A stretch of DNA of 24,084 nucleotides, taken from IMG/VR virus record IMGVR_UViG_3300032288_005818, positions 1-24,084 of that record. The stretch is one strand, 5' to 3'. The stretch is from a virus. The notes beneath the pieces were generated by a model that was not told the origin of the DNA, searched no databases, and worked only from the letters and a program-made list of their open reading frames with translations. A program made the translations under genes and the position numbers. Within the stretch, counting starts at the first letter, position 1. Each line of letters opens with the position of its first letter. This document shows positions 2,854 through 23,920 of the stretch, in pieces.

Positions 2854-3326
2854 ATACCGCAGTCACGCTCACCGCAGACGAGTTCAAGGTCCTGCACAAC
2901 AGTCTGTATGATCTTAACCAGTTGGCCTATTATCACCATGTGCCCAAAGTAGAAGAGATCGTAGAACGCATCCGCAAGGTGGCACTGAAATCGGCCTACG
3001 AGCAGGAGAATCAGGACTTCGATAGAAAACACCGTGAATACCAGCATTGGCAACAACACTATGGGCTCCGCTCTACTTGGAGCATGTACCAGGTCAACTT
3101 GATGACCACCTGCCATCCCTACAAAGATGCCACGCATGTGGTCTATGACGAACACTGGGGAGATAAAGAAGTCGTGGTTGAGATCGATGGTAAGGACTGG
3201 AACGCTCTGTATCGTGCGGCCGATGCGGCCATCCAGCAGTCAGGTGACTCGCATCACTGTTTCATCGAGTCGTTCTCTACCACAGTGGATAAACCTGGGC
3301 ATTTAAGGTTGCACACCGGGAGTTAA
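2850..3326 (+). CDS. Conserved-type hypothetical protein (158 aa)
   Basis: This 158-residue soluble protein starts MNTAVTLTADEFKVLHNSLY. It has a helical N-terminal half (residues 8-65) and a mixed C-terminal half rich in His, Trp and Asp (for example SHHCFIESF near 133-141). No catalytic motif is recognised. It is the last of an unbroken chain of ATGA-type overlaps begun at 1974 and is separated from the ligase gene by only 3 nt, so it is probably co-transcribed with it. Confidence 0.8.
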   Translation: MNTAVTLTADEFKVLHNSLYDLNQLAYYHHVPKVEEIVERIRKVALKSAYEQENQDFDRKHREYQHWQQHYGLRSTWSMYQVNLMTTCHPYKDATHVVYDEHWGDKEVVVEIDGKDWNALYRAADAAIQQSGDSHHCFIESFSTTVDKPGHLRLHTGS

Positions 3327-6270: not shown

Positions 6271-7809
6271 ATGTTCTTAACCTGGTTAATGTTAGCAGTG
6301 GCGCTGAGTCTTAGTACCATCGCTGCTTTTTATAGTATCATTGGTCTTACAGCCATTTTTGCTTCCGCTGTGGTTCCTGTGGCCGTCATGGGATCCATCC
6401 TAGAGATCGCCAAGCTAGTGGTCACAGTGTGGTTACATGAATACTGGGATCGTTGCCGCCGGCTGATGAAGGTCTATCTCGTCCCTGCTGTAGGCGTGCT
6501 CATGCTGATTACCAGCATGGGCATCTTTGGATTCCTTTCAAAGGCCCACCTTGACCAAACCGTGATCTCAGGAGATAGCATCACTCGTATCTCTATCTAC
6601 GATGAAAAGATAAAACAATCTCGGGAAAACATAGATACCAATCGCCGCGCACTGAAACAGATGGATGAGGCTGTGGACCAACAGATGTCTAGATCCACAG
6701 ACGAGCAAGGTGCCCAGCGCGCCGCTAACCTGCGCCGTAATCAGCAAGGTGAACGCACTCGTTTACAGAAAGAGATAGAAACAGAGCAGCGCAAGATCCA
6801 AAGCCTTAGCGAAGAGCGTGCGCCTATAGCCGCTGAGGTGCGCAAAGTCGAAGCCGAGGTAGGTCCTATCAAATACATCGCGGCCTTGATCTATGGCGAC
6901 AACCCCGATGCCAATCTCTTGGAAAAGGCCGTGCGCTGGGTCATCATAATACTGGTAGTGGTGTTTGACCCCCTAGCCATATTCATGTTGCTGGCCGCCA
7001 CAGAAAGTTACAAGTGGGAAAAGTACGGACGAGAAGGCAATCTCAAAGAACGCGATGCCCCTCCACCGCAACAGCCGGTCAAGGACGCTGTGGCAAAGAC
7101 CAGGTCCTGGGCTGAAATTTGGATTGAGAAAATCAAAGGATCACGAAATGCAATTGTACCTAATGATGCAAGTGTTACCAAGGATTTGGATGGACACCCT
7201 GCAGGAGATAGTGTGGACAGCCAACCCGTGGTTACGGTGGTGGAACAATCTAAAACCATCCCCCCGGAACAATGGGGAGGACAAGATTTAACCATTGACC
7301 TGTCTAACAAAACACCAGACCCTCTGGTATCTAGTAGTCCTGTTTATGTCAACATGCCGGATATCGTGTCATCTCATAGCGACGATGAGTACGCAAGTGA
7401 CGATATGACCAAGGCTGCCCAGCGTCGATGGAAGGTTGAAAATCCTGACAAAACTCTCAAAGAACAACGACATCTGTTGGAAATTGGACAGATAGATCAT
7501 CTGCCTTGGGAAGATTATCTCCGGGCCGATCGCAGGGTCAGCGAATCTGGATTCGGCTCCCAGTTCCCCGACGATCCCGAAAAGGGACAGATCTGGATCA
7601 GAACAGATCATCTGCCTACCACACTCCATAAATTCAACGGAGAAAAATGGATTGAAGTGATCAAAGATCAATCCGACTCTTATGCTTTCAATGAAGAATA
7701 CATCAATCATCTCATAGCCAAGATTGGTTCTGGTGAATATGATCCAGAATTACTTACGGATGCTGAGAGATTACAGATTGAATCTCGTTTGCGCACGGAC
7801 TTGACATGA
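6271..7809 (+). CDS. Phage membrane/coiled-coil protein (512 aa)
   Basis: This large integral membrane protein is of a type common and unnamed in aquatic T4-like phages. Three N-terminal membrane helices (about 3-25, 27-52, 67-90) carry the family's FYSIIGLTAIFASAVVPVAV-like start (here 20-39) and ITSMGIFGFLSKAH (80-93). A long coiled coil follows (about 105-200), then a fourth helix (about 223-245, VRWVIIILVVVFDPLAIFML). A polar linker and a soluble C-terminal domain (about 370-512) contain a KGQIWIRTDHLP-type motif near 435-446. The ATG has no clear ribosome site. It overlaps clpX by 4 nt. A role in membrane remodelling or lysis is possible but not shown. Confidence 0.85.
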   Translation: MFLTWLMLAVALSLSTIAAFYSIIGLTAIFASAVVPVAVMGSILEIAKLVVTVWLHEYWDRCRRLMKVYLVPAVGVLMLITSMGIFGFLSKAHLDQTVISGDSITRISIYDEKIKQSRENIDTNRRALKQMDEAVDQQMSRSTDEQGAQRAANLRRNQQGERTRLQKEIETEQRKIQSLSEERAPIAAEVRKVEAEVGPIKYIAALIYGDNPDANLLEKAVRWVIIILVVVFDPLAIFMLLAATESYKWEKYGREGNLKERDAPPPQQPVKDAVAKTRSWAEIWIEKIKGSRNAIVPNDASVTKDLDGHPAGDSVDSQPVVTVVEQSKTIPPEQWGGQDLTIDLSNKTPDPLVSSSPVYVNMPDIVSSHSDDEYASDDMTKAAQRRWKVENPDKTLKEQRHLLEIGQIDHLPWEDYLRADRRVSESGFGSQFPDDPEKGQIWIRTDHLPTTLHKFNGEKWIEVIKDQSDSYAFNEEYINHLIAKIGSGEYDPELLTDAERLQIESRLRTDLT

Positions 7810-9005
7810 CCGACAGCACAGGATTGCAGACCTGTAGTTTCTGCGGGAAACATAAAGATTCTGTGGCCAAACTCATAGTCAGTGACGAGGTTGCCATTTG
7901 CAACGAGTGTGTAATCTTGTGCCAAGAATTATTGGTAGATGCTCCAATCAAGATACCATCTAATGACATCAATGATCCTAGGAAACTCAAACAATATCTC
8001 GACCAATACTGCATAGGACAAGACCAGGCTAAGATCATGCTCAGCGTGGCCATTATCAATCATTATAAACGAATCAAGAATCAAGATCCTGATCACGAAA
8101 TCGCCAAAGCAAACATACTCATGATCGGCCCCACTGGGTCCGGTAAAACACTGCTGGCCAGGACAGTGGCGCGATATCTAGATGTGCCTTTTGCCATAGC
8201 CGATGCCACTAGCATCACTGAAGCAGGGTATGTTGGCGACGATGTCGAAAGTTTGATTTCCAGACTGTATGCCAATTCTGGGCATGATATCCAACGCACC
8301 CAGCAGGGCATTATCTTCGTAGACGAGATTGACAAGATAGCCAGGAAGAGTGAATCGGTGTCCATAACAAGAGATGTGTCTGGTGAAGGCGTGCAACAGG
8401 CCTTGTTGAAAATGGTAGAAGGTACCCGTTGCCGCATACCCGCGGGCGGTGGCCGCAAACATCCAGCCGGGGAAATGATAGAAATAGACACCACCAATAT
8501 ACTGTTTATTGCCGGAGGTGCTTTTGTTGGCCTCGACAAGATCATAGGCAATCGAATCAATGGATCCAGCATAGGTTTCAACTCCCCGGTCCGAGATCAA
8601 CAAGCCATCAACTTGGACCAAGTTGATCCTGATGATTTGGTGAGATTTGGTATGATTCCAGAGTTTGTGGGCCGGTTTCCTGGTGTAGTAAATCTCCAAC
8701 CCTTGGAACGGCCGGACTTGGTACGAATCCTTACTGAAGTAAAAAACAACTACATCGATCAATATCAGTGGTTGTTCCGGCAAGATGAGGTTGAATTGAC
8801 TTTTGCACAATCCGCACTGGATGCCATAGTGGATCGTGCCCACAGCAGTGGCACAGGTGCCCGGGCACTTCACAGCGAGATTGAGCGTGCTCTAATGCCG
8901 CACATGTTTAATCTAAGAGCATATCACGAGGCGGGTATAAACTGCGTAGATATTGATGCAGGCTTGGTAAATAATCCCAAGCCCTTGAAGGAGGTCGCAG
9001 TTTGA
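7806..9005 (+). CDS. clpX: ClpX, AAA+ unfoldase of ClpXP
   Basis: A full-length 399-residue ClpX (E. coli 424). The N-terminal zinc-binding domain has C10-x2-C13 and C32-x2-C35. The AAA+ module has Walker A GPTGSGKT (108-115), pore-1 loop GYVG (141-144), Walker B IIFVDEID (169-176), the RKH loop (217-219), sensor 1 near 230-240, arginine finger R290 in EFVGRFP and sensor 2 GARAL (351-355). The ClpP-docking IGF tripeptide is present at 256-258, so it should dock ClpP from phage or host. It unfolds tagged substrates and feeds them to ClpP in the cytoplasm. It overlaps the upstream membrane gene (ATGA) and the downstream rpsU start. Phage-borne complete ClpX is uncommon; no key residue is lost. 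Confidence 0.97.
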   Translation: MTDSTGLQTCSFCGKHKDSVAKLIVSDEVAICNECVILCQELLVDAPIKIPSNDINDPRKLKQYLDQYCIGQDQAKIMLSVAIINHYKRIKNQDPDHEIAKANILMIGPTGSGKTLLARTVARYLDVPFAIADATSITEAGYVGDDVESLISRLYANSGHDIQRTQQGIIFVDEIDKIARKSESVSITRDVSGEGVQQALLKMVEGTRCRIPAGGGRKHPAGEMIEIDTTNILFIAGGAFVGLDKIIGNRINGSSIGFNSPVRDQQAINLDQVDPDDLVRFGMIPEFVGRFPGVVNLQPLERPDLVRILTEVKNNYIDQYQWLFRQDEVELTFAQSALDAIVDRAHSSGTGARALHSEIERALMPHMFNLRAYHEAGINCVDIDAGLVNNPKPLKEVAV

Positions 9006-9315: not shown

Positions 9316-9756
9316 ATGACTAAAATCACATCGTTTGACCTCACCCCTTTCTACCGCTCCACGGTAGGTATCGACAGCCTGTTCGATCGCATCACACGCA
9401 ACATCGACATGGCTGCCAACGCAGGCAATTACCCTCCCTACAACATCGTCAAGACCGGCGATGAGACCTATGAGATCCAGATCGCGGCAGCAGGTTTCCG
9501 CCAAGACGAGATCGAAGTAGAAGTCAAGGATGGCCAACTTGTGGTACAAGGTGGACAAGGCAACCAAGCACGCCCAGAAGTAGAGTATCTACATCACGGT
9601 ATTTCAAACCGTAGTTTCATCCGTACCTTCCAACTCAGCGATTATGTCGAGGTCAAGGAAGCCCAGATGAAAGATGGTATCTTGACCGTGAGGTTAGAGC
9701 GTGAAATTCCTGAGGCTGCCAAGCCCAAGAAGATTGCCATCTCGTATCAAGCATGA
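9316..9756 (+). CDS. hsp20: Small heat-shock protein, Hsp20/IbpA family
   Basis: This 146-residue holdase chaperone binds unfolding proteins and keeps them refoldable. The alpha-crystallin domain (about 38-135) shows YNIVKTGDETYEIQIAAAGF, the DEIEVEVKDGQLVV strand pair, HHGISNRSFIRTFQL (about 93-107) and KDGILTVRLEREIPE (about 118-132), all typical of IbpA-like proteins of aquatic T4-like phages. The N terminus (SFDLTPFYRSTVGID) matches the FD-x-x-P-x-x-R-x-x-VGFD pattern of the family. It has its own strong promoter and a hairpin downstream, and lies between rpsU and clpS. Confidence 0.95.
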   Translation: MTKITSFDLTPFYRSTVGIDSLFDRITRNIDMAANAGNYPPYNIVKTGDETYEIQIAAAGFRQDEIEVEVKDGQLVVQGGQGNQARPEVEYLHHGISNRSFIRTFQLSDYVEVKEAQMKDGILTVRLEREIPEAAKPKKIAISYQA

Positions 9757-9768
9757 TGATGTAAATAT

Positions 9769-9792
9769 GGGTGAGAGAATCCTCTCTCACCC
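9769..9792 (+). terminator. Strong hairpin between hsp20 and clpS
   Basis: A perfect 10-bp stem (GGGTGAGAGA at 9769-9778, TCTCTCACCC at 9783-9792) with loop ATCC. No T-tract follows (AAACGG), so it is more likely an mRNA 3'-stabilising or processing hairpin than a full terminator; clpS may still be read through from hsp20. Confidence 0.6.
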
Positions 9793-9813
9793 AAACGGTA
9801 ACAAGGAATCCAC

Positions 9814-10125
9814 ATGTCGCAGGTCGAAATAAAAACAAAAACACGGACAAAAACTAATTTGGATGTCAAAGAACCTCCCATGTTTCGGATTATCTACATC
9901 AATGATGATCAGACTCCCATGGAGTTCGTGGTCAGCACTCTGATCGAACATTTTGATTACACCATAGACAGTGCCCAGGATATAACAATAGCCATCCACG
10001 AGACCGGATCTGCTGTGGTGGCTGTGCTGCCATATGAGTTAGCCGAGCAAAAAGGCGTAGAGATCACTGTGTCTGCCCGGTCTGAAGGTTACCCTTTGCA
10101 GATCAAACTGGAGCCGCAGACATGA
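9814..10125 (+). CDS. clpS: ClpS, N-degron adaptor
   Basis: A 103-residue ClpS. This adaptor binds proteins with N-terminal Leu, Phe, Tyr or Trp and hands them to ClpA or ClpC for degradation. The hallmark N30-D31-D32 (in YINDDQTPMEF), gate Met36 and His62 (AIHETG) are all present and correspond to E. coli N34, D35-D36, M40 and H66. The C-terminal AEQKGVEITVSARSEGYPL also fits. The N-terminal extension (1-22), needed for delivery, is Lys/Thr-rich. AAGGAA precedes the ATG by 7 nt. No ClpA is seen in the window, only ClpX, so its partner is either host ClpA or, less expectedly, phage ClpX. Confidence 0.95.
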   Translation: MSQVEIKTKTRTKTNLDVKEPPMFRIIYINDDQTPMEFVVSTLIEHFDYTIDSAQDITIAIHETGSAVVAVLPYELAEQKGVEITVSARSEGYPLQIKLEPQT

Positions 10126-15594: not shown

Positions 15595-16145
15595 GGATAA
15601 ACTGGGTCTTTGCCGCTGACTATCAGATAGATCCAACAGTCGATATCTCGCAGATCAAAAACATAGGTGCCACCTGGGGTAGTTGGAGATCATGGAGATC
15701 CTGCCAAACTGACAATGTTATCTGTGATGATCTTCCTAAGGGCAAGGAACTATTAAAACGAGCCTTCCAGGCCGTGTGCAACTTCCATGTACCTCGTCGT
15801 TATTATCAAGACCTCGGTCGCCCAGTGGGCATTAAACTGTACGATGGACAATTCGCCGAACAAGTTGATGACATTGAAGACATCATCGCTCTGCACCTAG
15901 TACTGGGCATATCAGATATAGTGTTACTGGCTGGCTTTGATCTCCGCCAACCGGTCCCGACCAACGATCGATTTGAACAACATAAAATCCAAAATCGGTT
16001 AGGACTGATCCGCAGCGTGATCCAAAACAATCCCGAAGTACAGTGGGTATTGGTCGATCACCCCGGCGAATTGGACAAAGGTTTCCGAAACATAGCCAAT
16101 CTCACTTGCGATCAATTCCAAAATGTCATACAATTGTTGGTATGA
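15591..16145 (+). CDS. Conserved aquatic-phage hypothetical protein (184 aa)
   Basis: A 184-residue protein of a widespread unnamed family in marine phages, recognisable by MRINWVFA, NIGATWGSWRSWRSC (about 24-38), TDNVICDDL, RAFQAVCNFHVP (57-68) and the VDDIEDIIALHLV helix. The segment IIALHLVLGISDIVLLAGFDL (here split across 98-118) resembles the helix-strand of DUF115/sialyltransferase-like Rossmann proteins, a weak hint of sugar binding. GAGG lies before the ATG, which overlaps the tail-fibre-like stop by 4 nt. It overlaps uvsE by 4 nt. Confidence 0.8.
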   Translation: MRINWVFAADYQIDPTVDISQIKNIGATWGSWRSWRSCQTDNVICDDLPKGKELLKRAFQAVCNFHVPRRYYQDLGRPVGIKLYDGQFAEQVDDIEDIIALHLVLGISDIVLLAGFDLRQPVPTNDRFEQHKIQNRLGLIRSVIQNNPEVQWVLVDHPGELDKGFRNIANLTCDQFQNVIQLLV

Positions 16146-20402: not shown

Positions 20403-20675
20403 ATGAAGAAAGGTTCGCTTACTATGAAAAGGAAACCCAAAATGGACTTTACCAAAATCGATTTTTCTAAATTTGATGTAGCCAAGATGTTTGATGTTGA
20501 CGCTGCCATCGCCCAGATGGAAGAAGCCAATTCCAAAGCCATCGCATTGATCACTGACACCAAAGCCAAATCTATCGCCGAAACCGTTTCCTCGGCCAGT
20601 TTTGAGTTTGCTCGTGCCCAAGCCGCTGCCGCCAAGGCATTTGGCGAAGCAGTGAAAAAAGCCGTACAGATCTAA
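20403..20675 (+). CDS. Phasin-like small helical protein (up to 90 aa)
   Basis: A helical Ala-rich protein with DFTKIDFSKFDVAKMFDVDA (about 15-34), then a long amphipathic helix (AIAQMEEANSKAIALI) and ARAQAAAAKAFGEAVKKA, the pattern of small phasin-family proteins that coat polyhydroxyalkanoate granules or membranes. Three in-frame ATGs exist (20403, 20424, 20442). AAAAGGA before 20442 makes a 77-residue form starting MDFTKIDF the best-supported product; the longer start has no ribosome site. It has its own promoter, and a hairpin element follows. Confidence 0.65.
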   Translation: MKKGSLTMKRKPKMDFTKIDFSKFDVAKMFDVDAAIAQMEEANSKAIALITDTKAKSIAETVSSASFEFARAQAAAAKAFGEAVKKAVQI

Positions 20676-20688
20676 GCCCGAAACCCCA

Positions 20689-20706
20689 GGTTAGTGCTTG
20701 CTAACC
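20689..20706 (+). repeat. 18-nt hairpin element, copy 2
   Basis: GGTTAGTGCTTGCTAACC folds into a 6-8 bp stem and matches the element at 83-100 at 15 of 18 positions, with pairing-compatible changes. It is 4 bp upstream of the TTGACA box of the next promoter; copy 1 is 6 bp upstream of its own. Confidence 0.5.
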
Positions 20707-20710
20707 AAGG

Positions 20711-20739
20711 TTGACACAAAAATCCTACCCATGTATTAT
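20711..20739 (+). promoter_or_regulatory. Sigma70-type promoter of the exported-protein gene
   Basis: Consensus TTGACA (20711-20716), a 17-bp spacer ending in an extended TG, and TATTAT (20734-20739). Its -10 box is the loop of a 13-bp inverted repeat (see next feature). Confidence 0.85.
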
Positions 20740-20757
20740 AAGAGGGTAGGATTTTTT
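20718..20757 (+). terminator. Terminator-like inverted repeat enclosing a promoter -10 box
   Basis: A perfect 13-bp inverted repeat (AAAAATCCTACCC at 20718-20730, GGGTAGGATTTTT at 20744-20756) with a 13-nt loop, ending in a T-run. Read through from upstream it would form an intrinsic terminator for the phasin-like transcript. The downstream promoter lies inside it, so a transcript starting near 20746 would contain only the right arm. Confidence 0.8.
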
Positions 20758-20781
20758 ATTGACCTCTCAAGGAGATCTCAC

Positions 20782-21294
20782 ATGAAACTAGCCACCATGG
20801 CTGTAGCACTGTCTTTCACACTTTCAGCCCAGGCCGGCGTGGAAATCCTCCACACTGGTCAGGATCAAAAACAAGGTGATCAGTCCATGGCCGCGGTACG
20901 CCTGGGAGATGGATCACGCACACACCTGCCCAGGGCCACAGACGGACGCCCAGTCTGGACCGGTGACCTCACTGCCTATGGCAACTGGCGGTCCTGGTTG
21001 AGCGACAACCAAGTGGGATATCTCACCCAATTTGGTGGCGAGTATCAGTACCACAACGGCAAGCTCATGCATCAGGACGCTGTGATCGTGGCCCAACGTG
21101 CAGAGACGGACGAGCGAAATCGCCAGTATGATGCGGAAATGGATCGGCAACGCCAACGCAACGGTGGCCTCACTGACGAACAATTGGACAAATTGGGCAT
21201 GGAAAAAGGTCTGGCCTGGTTGCGTGAATCTCGGTCTGGTCAGTCTGGCACCCAATCGGCCTCGAGACCAGTTGAGATCCGGCCTATCCAATAA
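20782..21294 (+). CDS. Exported hypothetical protein (170 aa)
   Basis: The start at 20782 is set by AAGGAG 7 nt upstream. MKLATMAVALSFTLSAQAG is a clear signal peptide with likely AQA cleavage (after residue 18). The mature part has beta-type sequence with WRSWLSDNQVGYL (about 64-76), then a highly charged helix (RAETDERNRQYDAEMDRQRQ, about 103-122) and a GGLTDEQLDKLG region. It is probably periplasmic. It is the first of four consecutive exported proteins. No family recognised. Confidence 0.8.
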   Translation: MKLATMAVALSFTLSAQAGVEILHTGQDQKQGDQSMAAVRLGDGSRTHLPRATDGRPVWTGDLTAYGNWRSWLSDNQVGYLTQFGGEYQYHNGKLMHQDAVIVAQRAETDERNRQYDAEMDRQRQRNGGLTDEQLDKLGMEKGLAWLRESRSGQSGTQSASRPVEIRPIQ

Positions 21295-21303
21295 TTAGCA
21301 GAG

Positions 21304-21332
21304 TTGACCAGAAAGCCTTGTTCGTGTAATAT
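21304..21332 (+). promoter_or_regulatory. Sigma70-type promoter of the entericidin-like operon
   Basis: TTGACC (21304-21309), a 17-bp spacer ending in extended TG, and TAATAT (21327-21332). It resembles the repeated early cassette (TTGACCAGAAA start) but is flanked by a terminator-like dyad, as at 20711. Confidence 0.82.
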
Positions 21333-21353
21333 ACACACATGAACAAGGTTTTT
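21312..21353 (+). terminator. Terminator-like inverted repeat enclosing a promoter -10 box
   Basis: CCTTGTTC (21316-21323) pairs with GAACAAGG (21341-21348). It extends through one G-T and three A-T pairs into a T-run (21349-21353), 12 bp in all. The 17-nt loop holds the -10 box and a small nested GTGT/ACAC dyad. Same arrangement as 20718-20757. Confidence 0.75.
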
Positions 21354-21379
21354 CTTTCAACCAAACAAGGACTATTTCA

Positions 21380-21502
21380 ATGAAAATCTTTTCCGTTTTA
21401 GTAGTGGCCATGATGTTACAAGCCTGTGGCACATTGGGTGGTGCAGTTTCGGGTGCCGGTGATGATCTCAAAGCCGCTGGTGGCTGGATCAAAAAACAAT
21501 AA
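21380..21502 (+). CDS. Entericidin-like small lipoprotein (40 aa)
   Basis: A 40-residue lipoprotein: MKIFSVLVVAMMLQAC with lipobox LQAC (Cys16), then GTLGGAVSGAGDDLKAAGGWIKKQ-type sequence (here residues 17-40). This matches the entericidin A/B family (GxG-x-D-x-K-x-AG-x-x-I), bacterial toxin/antidote-like membrane lipoproteins. AAGGA precedes the ATG. In a phage it may act on the cell envelope. It lies 6 nt before the next lipoprotein gene, so the two are co-transcribed. Confidence 0.82.
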   Translation: MKIFSVLVVAMMLQACGTLGGAVSGAGDDLKAAGGWIKKQ

Positions 21503-23347: not shown

Positions 23348-23920
23348 ATGACTACCGAAAAAGAACAAGTCTACGATAGCCCAAGCCAAGCCCTAAACGA
23401 TCACGGCATCTATGTGCTCATGGACGACATTGATCCCGAAAGCATCAAGCCCGTGATCGAGTGGATACTCCACGAAAACCATGTAAAAAAGAAAAAGCAC
23501 AAAGAACTCCTGCTCATGGTCTGCTCCAACGGGGGAAATATCTCCGAAGCATTTGCCCTGATTGATGTCATGCGCAGTAGCAAGATCCCAGTGAAAACCG
23601 TGGGCCTGGGTTGCATCGCTTCATGTGGATTGCTGATATTCTTGGCTGGTGCTCCTGGGCGGCGTGTGCTCACTCCCAACACTTCTGTGCTGAGCCATCA
23701 GTTCTCGTGGGATGTCGGGGGCAAGGCGCATGAACTGTTCGCCACTGTGAAAGAGTTTGATCTCACGCAAAAGCGGATGATCGAGCATTATCGGCGTAGC
23801 ACTGGCCTGGATGATGACACTATCCGACAGGTTCTGTTGCCTCCTCAGGATGTGTATCTTGATGCTGAAGAGGCCATGAAGTACAAAATCTGCGACGCCA
23901 TTGCTGATCTCGCAGCCTGA
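23348..23920 (+). CDS. clpP: ClpP-like serine peptidase
   Basis: A 190-residue ClpP, the proteolytic chamber that degrades substrates unfolded by ClpX or ClpA. The catalytic triad is intact: S92 (IASCG, for the usual ASMG), H117 (LSHQF) and D168 (PPQDVYLDAEEA). SNGGNISEAFALIDVMR (60-76) is the oxyanion/handle region. The N-terminus (1-19) is charged, without a long propeptide. The ATG has no good ribosome site. It has its own promoter, with a leader of about 35 nt, and the stop is 1 nt from the antisense gene's stop. It can partner with the phage ClpX, which keeps its IGF loop. Confidence 0.93.
   Translation: MTTEKEQVYDSPSQALNDHGIYVLMDDIDPESIKPVIEWILHENHVKKKKHKELLLMVCSNGGNISEAFALIDVMRSSKIPVKTVGLGCIASCGLLIFLAGAPGRRVLTPNTSVLSHQFSWDVGGKAHELFATVKEFDLTQKRMIEHYRRSTGLDDDTIRQVLLPPQDVYLDAEEAMKYKICDAIADLAA

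Follow-up and report, generated by a model that had tools for sequence, protein, structure and literature searches.

Promoters nested in predicted terminator hairpins at two gene borders of an uncultured, probably T4-like phage fragment

Can one short stretch of phage DNA both end the transcript of the gene before it and start that of the gene behind it? The question is raised by two intergenic sites in IMG/VR record IMGVR_UViG_3300032288_005818, the whole of which (24,084 bases) was analysed and is referred to here as the window. Its genes include ligase, ClpX, Hsp20, UvdE and ClpP-like ones, and searches anchored on ClpX, ClpP and the desaturase led to its relatives. Gp23, the capsid protein of T4, is found in five relatives (including G012, G008, G013 and G014; E about 1e-98 to 1e-100), and as the large relatives encode it the lineage is probably T4-like; the window itself is a 24-kb fragment, and its nearest contigs are likewise fragments, without Gp23. 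A 356-aa window protein has relatives in G001 and G002 and none among annotated phages or in the viral contigs scan, and Rfam and tRNA scans over the window returned no matches.

Two promoters inside inverted repeats

The two sites share a layout (Table 1). At site 1 a TTGACA-N17-TATTAT promoter (20711-20739) is interleaved with a perfect inverted repeat of 13 bp with a 13-nt loop, and at site 2 a TTGACC-N17-TAATAT promoter (21304-21332) is interleaved with a stem of 17 bp, counting G-U pairs, with a 9-nt loop. An earlier note on this DNA had described −10 boxes in the loops of 12-13 bp repeats that end in a T-run, which holds at both sites except that the stem of site 2 is longer. At each site a GC-containing stem is directly followed by a U-tract, as in an intrinsic terminator, with loops of 9-13 nt that are longer than is usual for one. 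A promoter/terminator scan of the window listed both promoters and neither nested terminator, because it admits loops up to 8 nt only.

Table 1. Features at and around the two nested sites, in window coordinates
Feature	Position	Strand	Length	Remark
Small phasin-like gene (name by eye)	20403..20675	+		directly upstream of site 1
Site 1 −35 hexamer TTGACA	20711..20716	+		
Site 1 hairpin 5' arm AAAAATCCTACCC	20718..20730	+		within promoter spacer; 100% complementary to 20744-20756
Site 1 −10 hexamer TATTAT	20734..20739	+		whole hexamer in hairpin loop 20731-20743
Site 1 hairpin 3' arm GGGTAGGATTTTT	20744..20756	+		complementarity, fold
Site 1 T-run T6	20752..20757	+		predicted U-tract
Gene of 170-aa secreted-type protein	20782..21294	+		downstream of site 1; SD AGGAG 20770-20774
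Site 2 −35 hexamer TTGACC	21304..21309	+		
Cassette around site 2	21304..21357	+	54 nt	89% identical to L107:12633-12686
Site 2 hairpin 5' arm	21311..21327	+		G-U pairs included; RNA fold
Site 2 −10 hexamer TAATAT	21327..21332	+		5/6 bases in loop 21328-21336
Site 2 hairpin 3' arm ACATGAACAAGGTTTTT	21337..21353	+		RNA fold
14-codon ORF MNKVFLSTKQGLFQ	21339..21383	+		start at predicted +1
Site 2 T-rich tail TTTTTCTTT	21349..21358	+		predicted U-tract
Entericidin-like 40-aa lipoprotein gene (name by eye)	21380..21502	+		downstream of site 2

RNA spanning site 1 folds at −17.4 kcal/mol (z −5.1) and RNA spanning site 2 at −21.3 kcal/mol (z −6.0), and in neither case was any of 200 shuffles as good. 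The combination of promoter, stem (arm of at least 12, with at least 5 GC pairs) and T-run occurs twice in the window and in none of 400 dinucleotide shuffles together, and a chance origin of the elements was rejected on this count. By the usual 7-nt rule, +1 is predicted at 20746 for site 1 and at 21339, the A of an ATG, for site 2. Both positions lie inside the 3' arm, and therefore the promoter's own RNA should lack the hairpin; RNA starting there shows no unusual fold when compared with its shuffles (z 0.07 at site 1, 0.76 at site 2).

Taken together, these features make it likely that both sites are composites of a terminator and a promoter, of the type known from T4-like phages as PeSL (promoter early stem-loop), for which Arbiol 2010 (10.1093/gbe/evq006) and Comeau 2014 (10.1093/gbe/evu129) are reportedly the defining papers. 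A polymerase arriving from the upstream gene would transcribe both arms, the RNA would fold, and the U-tract would release it. A polymerase bound at the sigma70-type promoter would instead initiate at +1 within the 3' arm, and its RNA, having part of one arm only, would not be terminated at that hairpin. One stretch of about 50 bp could thus close the upstream gene and open the downstream one, with termination, initiation and gene insulation all predicted here from the DNA sequence. It has been reported that E. coli polymerase, having terminated, can stay bound to DNA and begin again close by (PMC11347151). Such behaviour would fit the nested layout, and if bacterial polymerase does act in this way, nested elements would be good places to test restart. 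Ribosomes can repress terminators close to a stop codon (PMC4824070), and by analogy the upstream stop codons near these elements may weaken termination.

A further dyad, like GTTAGTGnnnACTAAC and without a T-run, lies at 20690-20706, a few bases upstream of the site 1 −35 hexamer. In both the window and G001, dyads of this kind recur shortly before −35 hexamers, and they are also listed for L089, L090 and L093.

Recurrence, pairing and position in related phages

Nested elements are present in many relatives (two each in G001, L196 and L212; also L107, L139, L190, L191, L205, L206, L213 and others). They occur in the ClpP-anchored relatives and hardly at all in the ClpX-anchored ones (80 loci), and a DNA search with both elements in annotated phages gave chance-level matches only. 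In an alignment of 12 related elements 92% of stem positions are paired, a value biased upward in that most of the 12 were chosen by a scanner requiring a stem, and at 8 of the 16 pairs both partners have changed without loss of pairing. Pairing as high was reached in none of 500 shuffles, and partners slid out of register are 23-44% paired. We also searched viral contigs with a pattern whose outer part was fixed and in which five pairs were left free on both sides: all 25 free pairs recovered are standard, 23 of them Watson-Crick (permutation p 0.001), in a set of five distinct sequences that includes the window's own. Sampling the lipoprotein family by protein added one nested case, L263, in a sample that is only partly independent, one query peptide overlapping the 3' arm.

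Sites 1 and 2 themselves match at 24 of 54 positions (ungapped). The claim that they have the same geometry with different stem sequence is borne out, and the pattern extends to relatives with compensatory changes. Covariation at the sequence level is evidence that selection keeps nested promoter-terminators, and the element is real and probably functional. A variant is seen at L006 19705 and also in L098, where the −10 runs directly into the 5' arm (TATAATATCAGA..TTCTGATATTTTTTT) and the predicted +1 falls at the start of the loop.

The promoters of these phages follow a consensus to which site 2 conforms, with many TTGACC-aataattcccaatttgc-TATAATATACACATA promoters on the coding strand of relatives. 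The spacer of this consensus starts A-rich, and therefore any 3' arm that pairs with it should end in a T-run automatically. Around 657 unique strong promoters, terminator hairpins fall into two groups, one with centres about 60 nt before +1 and one, the nested class, with centres at −7 to −9; the nested class has 8 members against 0.6 in permuted flanks. The dyad centre would lie at about −8 because no other position leaves room for two long arms, one between the hexamers and one behind the −10. Among 17 elements, 12 begin 7-37 nt after a same-strand upstream ORF.

The majority of promoters in this phage group are not nested, and in the same phages a tandem form, in which the terminator ends just before the −35, outnumbers the nested one several-fold. 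The tandem form also ends one transcript and begins another; it does so by two separate signals, with the hairpin centre about 60 nt before +1, where the nested form uses one shared stretch. Its abundance, together with tiny intergenic gaps, leaves some room for the view that a compact genome simply makes terminator and promoter overlap, with no coupling and no selection for restart or insulation. We regard this as possible but doubtful, given that phages with only 45-60% protein identity retain the nested form, their stems having changed in a compensatory way.

Start codons within the 3' arm

In L107, L139, L206, L263 and G001 the 3' arm contains the ATG of a lipoprotein gene, which coincides with the predicted +1, 6 nt after the −10. 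A wider count gives an ATG at exactly this offset in 50 of about 365 promoter-ORF pairs, 48 of the 50 without a Shine-Dalgarno-like motif, although the independent genes are fewer than 50, several cases being orthologues of one UvdE-like gene. The main promoter-to-ATG peak is near 30 nt, where a Shine-Dalgarno-like motif is usual. Leaderless genes with the ATG at +1 seem to form a major class here, which, if correct, has consequences for gene calling and for views of translation during infection. The cI mRNA of phage lambda is a leaderless phage message with its start codon at +1; the lipoprotein starts resemble it in predicted position and differ in sitting within a terminator arm.

On balance we lean towards a reading in which the same stretch of about 50 bp serves as promoter, as terminator of the upstream gene and, in its 3' arm, as the place where a lipoprotein gene has its leaderless start codon and its first signal-peptide codons, with the non-coding 5' arm tracking K to R and V to I changes in a compensatory manner and leaderless ATG-at-+1 genes forming a general class of these phages. 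The doubling of the 3' arm as a leaderless lipoprotein start in relatives is possibly new.

The 14-codon ORF at site 2, whose TGA overlaps the ATG of the next gene, looks like the cut-off start of the L107 lipoprotein gene (MNKVFLLPILLMTGCA..). Site 2 could accordingly be a leftover: a lipoprotein gene with its start inside the element would have been lost or replaced, and a promoter, a hairpin and a 14-codon stub remain. This is a tentative explanation to which we give less than even weight. The stub begins MNKVFL.., as the lipoprotein does, homology to L107 ends at the borders of the element, and L105 retains the 3' arm only; against it, none of the 17-bp stem has been lost, and the gene that the promoter faces is a conserved one.

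Because the start codon lies within the 3' arm in the five genomes named above, the hairpin might act mainly on translation, hiding the start codon in read-through RNA so that only RNA from the element's own promoter is translated. This seems unlikely, as stem and T-run are kept where the start codon lies beyond the hairpin (site 1 of the window, L191, L205, L212 and L213).

The predicted +1 is also the start of short ORFs, 13-24 codons long, in the window (21339-21383), in L105 (13550-13591) and in L240 and L243, with the products MNKVFLSTKQGLFQ, MGRIFIDQNKDQR and MNWIFLGCKQT.. among them, and the TGA of the L105 ORF overlaps the next gene's ATG, as in the window. Such ORFs may be relics or leader peptides. 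Candidate leaderless genes with the ATG 6 nt after the −10 are listed for contigs from L009 to L235, and the UvdE-like gene is an example in many contigs; in the window, at about 16106-16144, TTGCGA-N17-TACAAT is followed 7 nt later by the UvdE-like ATG.

Turnover, gene exchange and known systems

The phasin-like gene is conserved in G001, L105, L106 and L107, and behind it G001 keeps a nested element with a changed stem. L105 and L106 keep the hairpin and T-run there with no evident promoter, as would be expected if the hairpin serves as a terminator. At the position of site 2, the promoter before the entericidin-like gene stands without a hairpin in G001, L187, L188 and L189, and in L105 the promoter and the 3' arm remain and the 5' arm is gone. 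Since the hairpin is lost at these orthologues, the element turns over, and its conservation is partial. The earlier note had held that loss of the stem with retention of the promoter would count against its proposal of a compact terminate-and-restart element; this pattern is what G001 and L105 display at site 2. The proposal gains from recurrence, compensatory changes, preferred positions and the placement of most elements just after ORF ends, and loses where the hairpin has gone.

Elements stand at the borders of exchanged genes in two comparisons. Between sites 1 and 2, G001 has an unrelated gene, for a lipoprotein, in place of the window's, and the genes further out match (desaturase and ClpP 75%, a 227-aa lipoprotein 32%). 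The comparison with L107 pairs the two copies of the site 2 cassette, and no flank homology was reported on either side of it. Such identity over 54 nt between unrelated flanks, and a differing gene between matching outer genes, would suit an element kept chiefly as a recombination cassette for phage gene swapping. We find this improbable as the main role: a hairpin is unnecessary for exchange, and the window's two copies are too unlike to recombine together.

PeSL copies within one genome are typically alike enough to recombine; here the window's two copies are dissimilar and site 2 is far closer to the copy in another phage (L107). PMC4503421 treats PeSLs in T4-like phages, citing the defining papers. 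To judge from that account, the window elements resemble PeSLs in being composites of a sigma70-type promoter and a stem-loop terminator between small variable genes, associated with gene swapping (PMC4503421). Judged by their bases, they do combine a strong promoter of this type and a stem-loop terminator in one element. They differ in their stems, their longer loops and their uncultured lineage, and further in that the 3' arm of the elements in relatives doubles as the site of a predicted leaderless start codon.

The nested layout is not a new kind of element. RB49, which with its kin is among the phages from which PeSLs were described, has it before gene 39, an arrangement common to about 60 phage records, and in GEC-3S (NC_025425.1) the annotated promoter (3175-3202) has its −10 inside the annotated terminator (3164-3191). 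The gene 39 element has similar spacing, a T-run and a fold of −21.5 kcal/mol; its ORF start lies beyond the hairpin, and no sequence relation to the window elements was found. The window elements are thus mostly of an already known kind, and they extend nested promoter-terminators from RB49-like coliphages to uncultured T4-like phages. Where insulated gene expression is wanted, a nested element could also serve as a compact building block.

Operators classically occupy dyads centred on the −10, but a repressor site over the −10 without any terminator is very improbable and was rejected as the main explanation, since stem sequences diverge between sites and genomes while pairing stays and the T-run never stands on the 5' side, only on the 3' one. 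Hairpin promoters of the N4 type are small hairpins recognised by a virion RNA polymerase that does not need sigma70 hexamers, and they were rejected given stems of 13-17 bp and near-consensus sigma70 hexamers.

Elsewhere in the window, ClpX-, Hsp20-, ClpS- (by eye) and ClpP-like genes (7806-9005, 9316-9756, 9814-10125 and 23348-23920) make up a nearly whole protein-turnover gene set on a phage fragment. Between the Hsp20-like and ClpS-like genes lies a perfect 11-bp hairpin with a 4-nt loop (9768-9793), perhaps an ordinary terminator.
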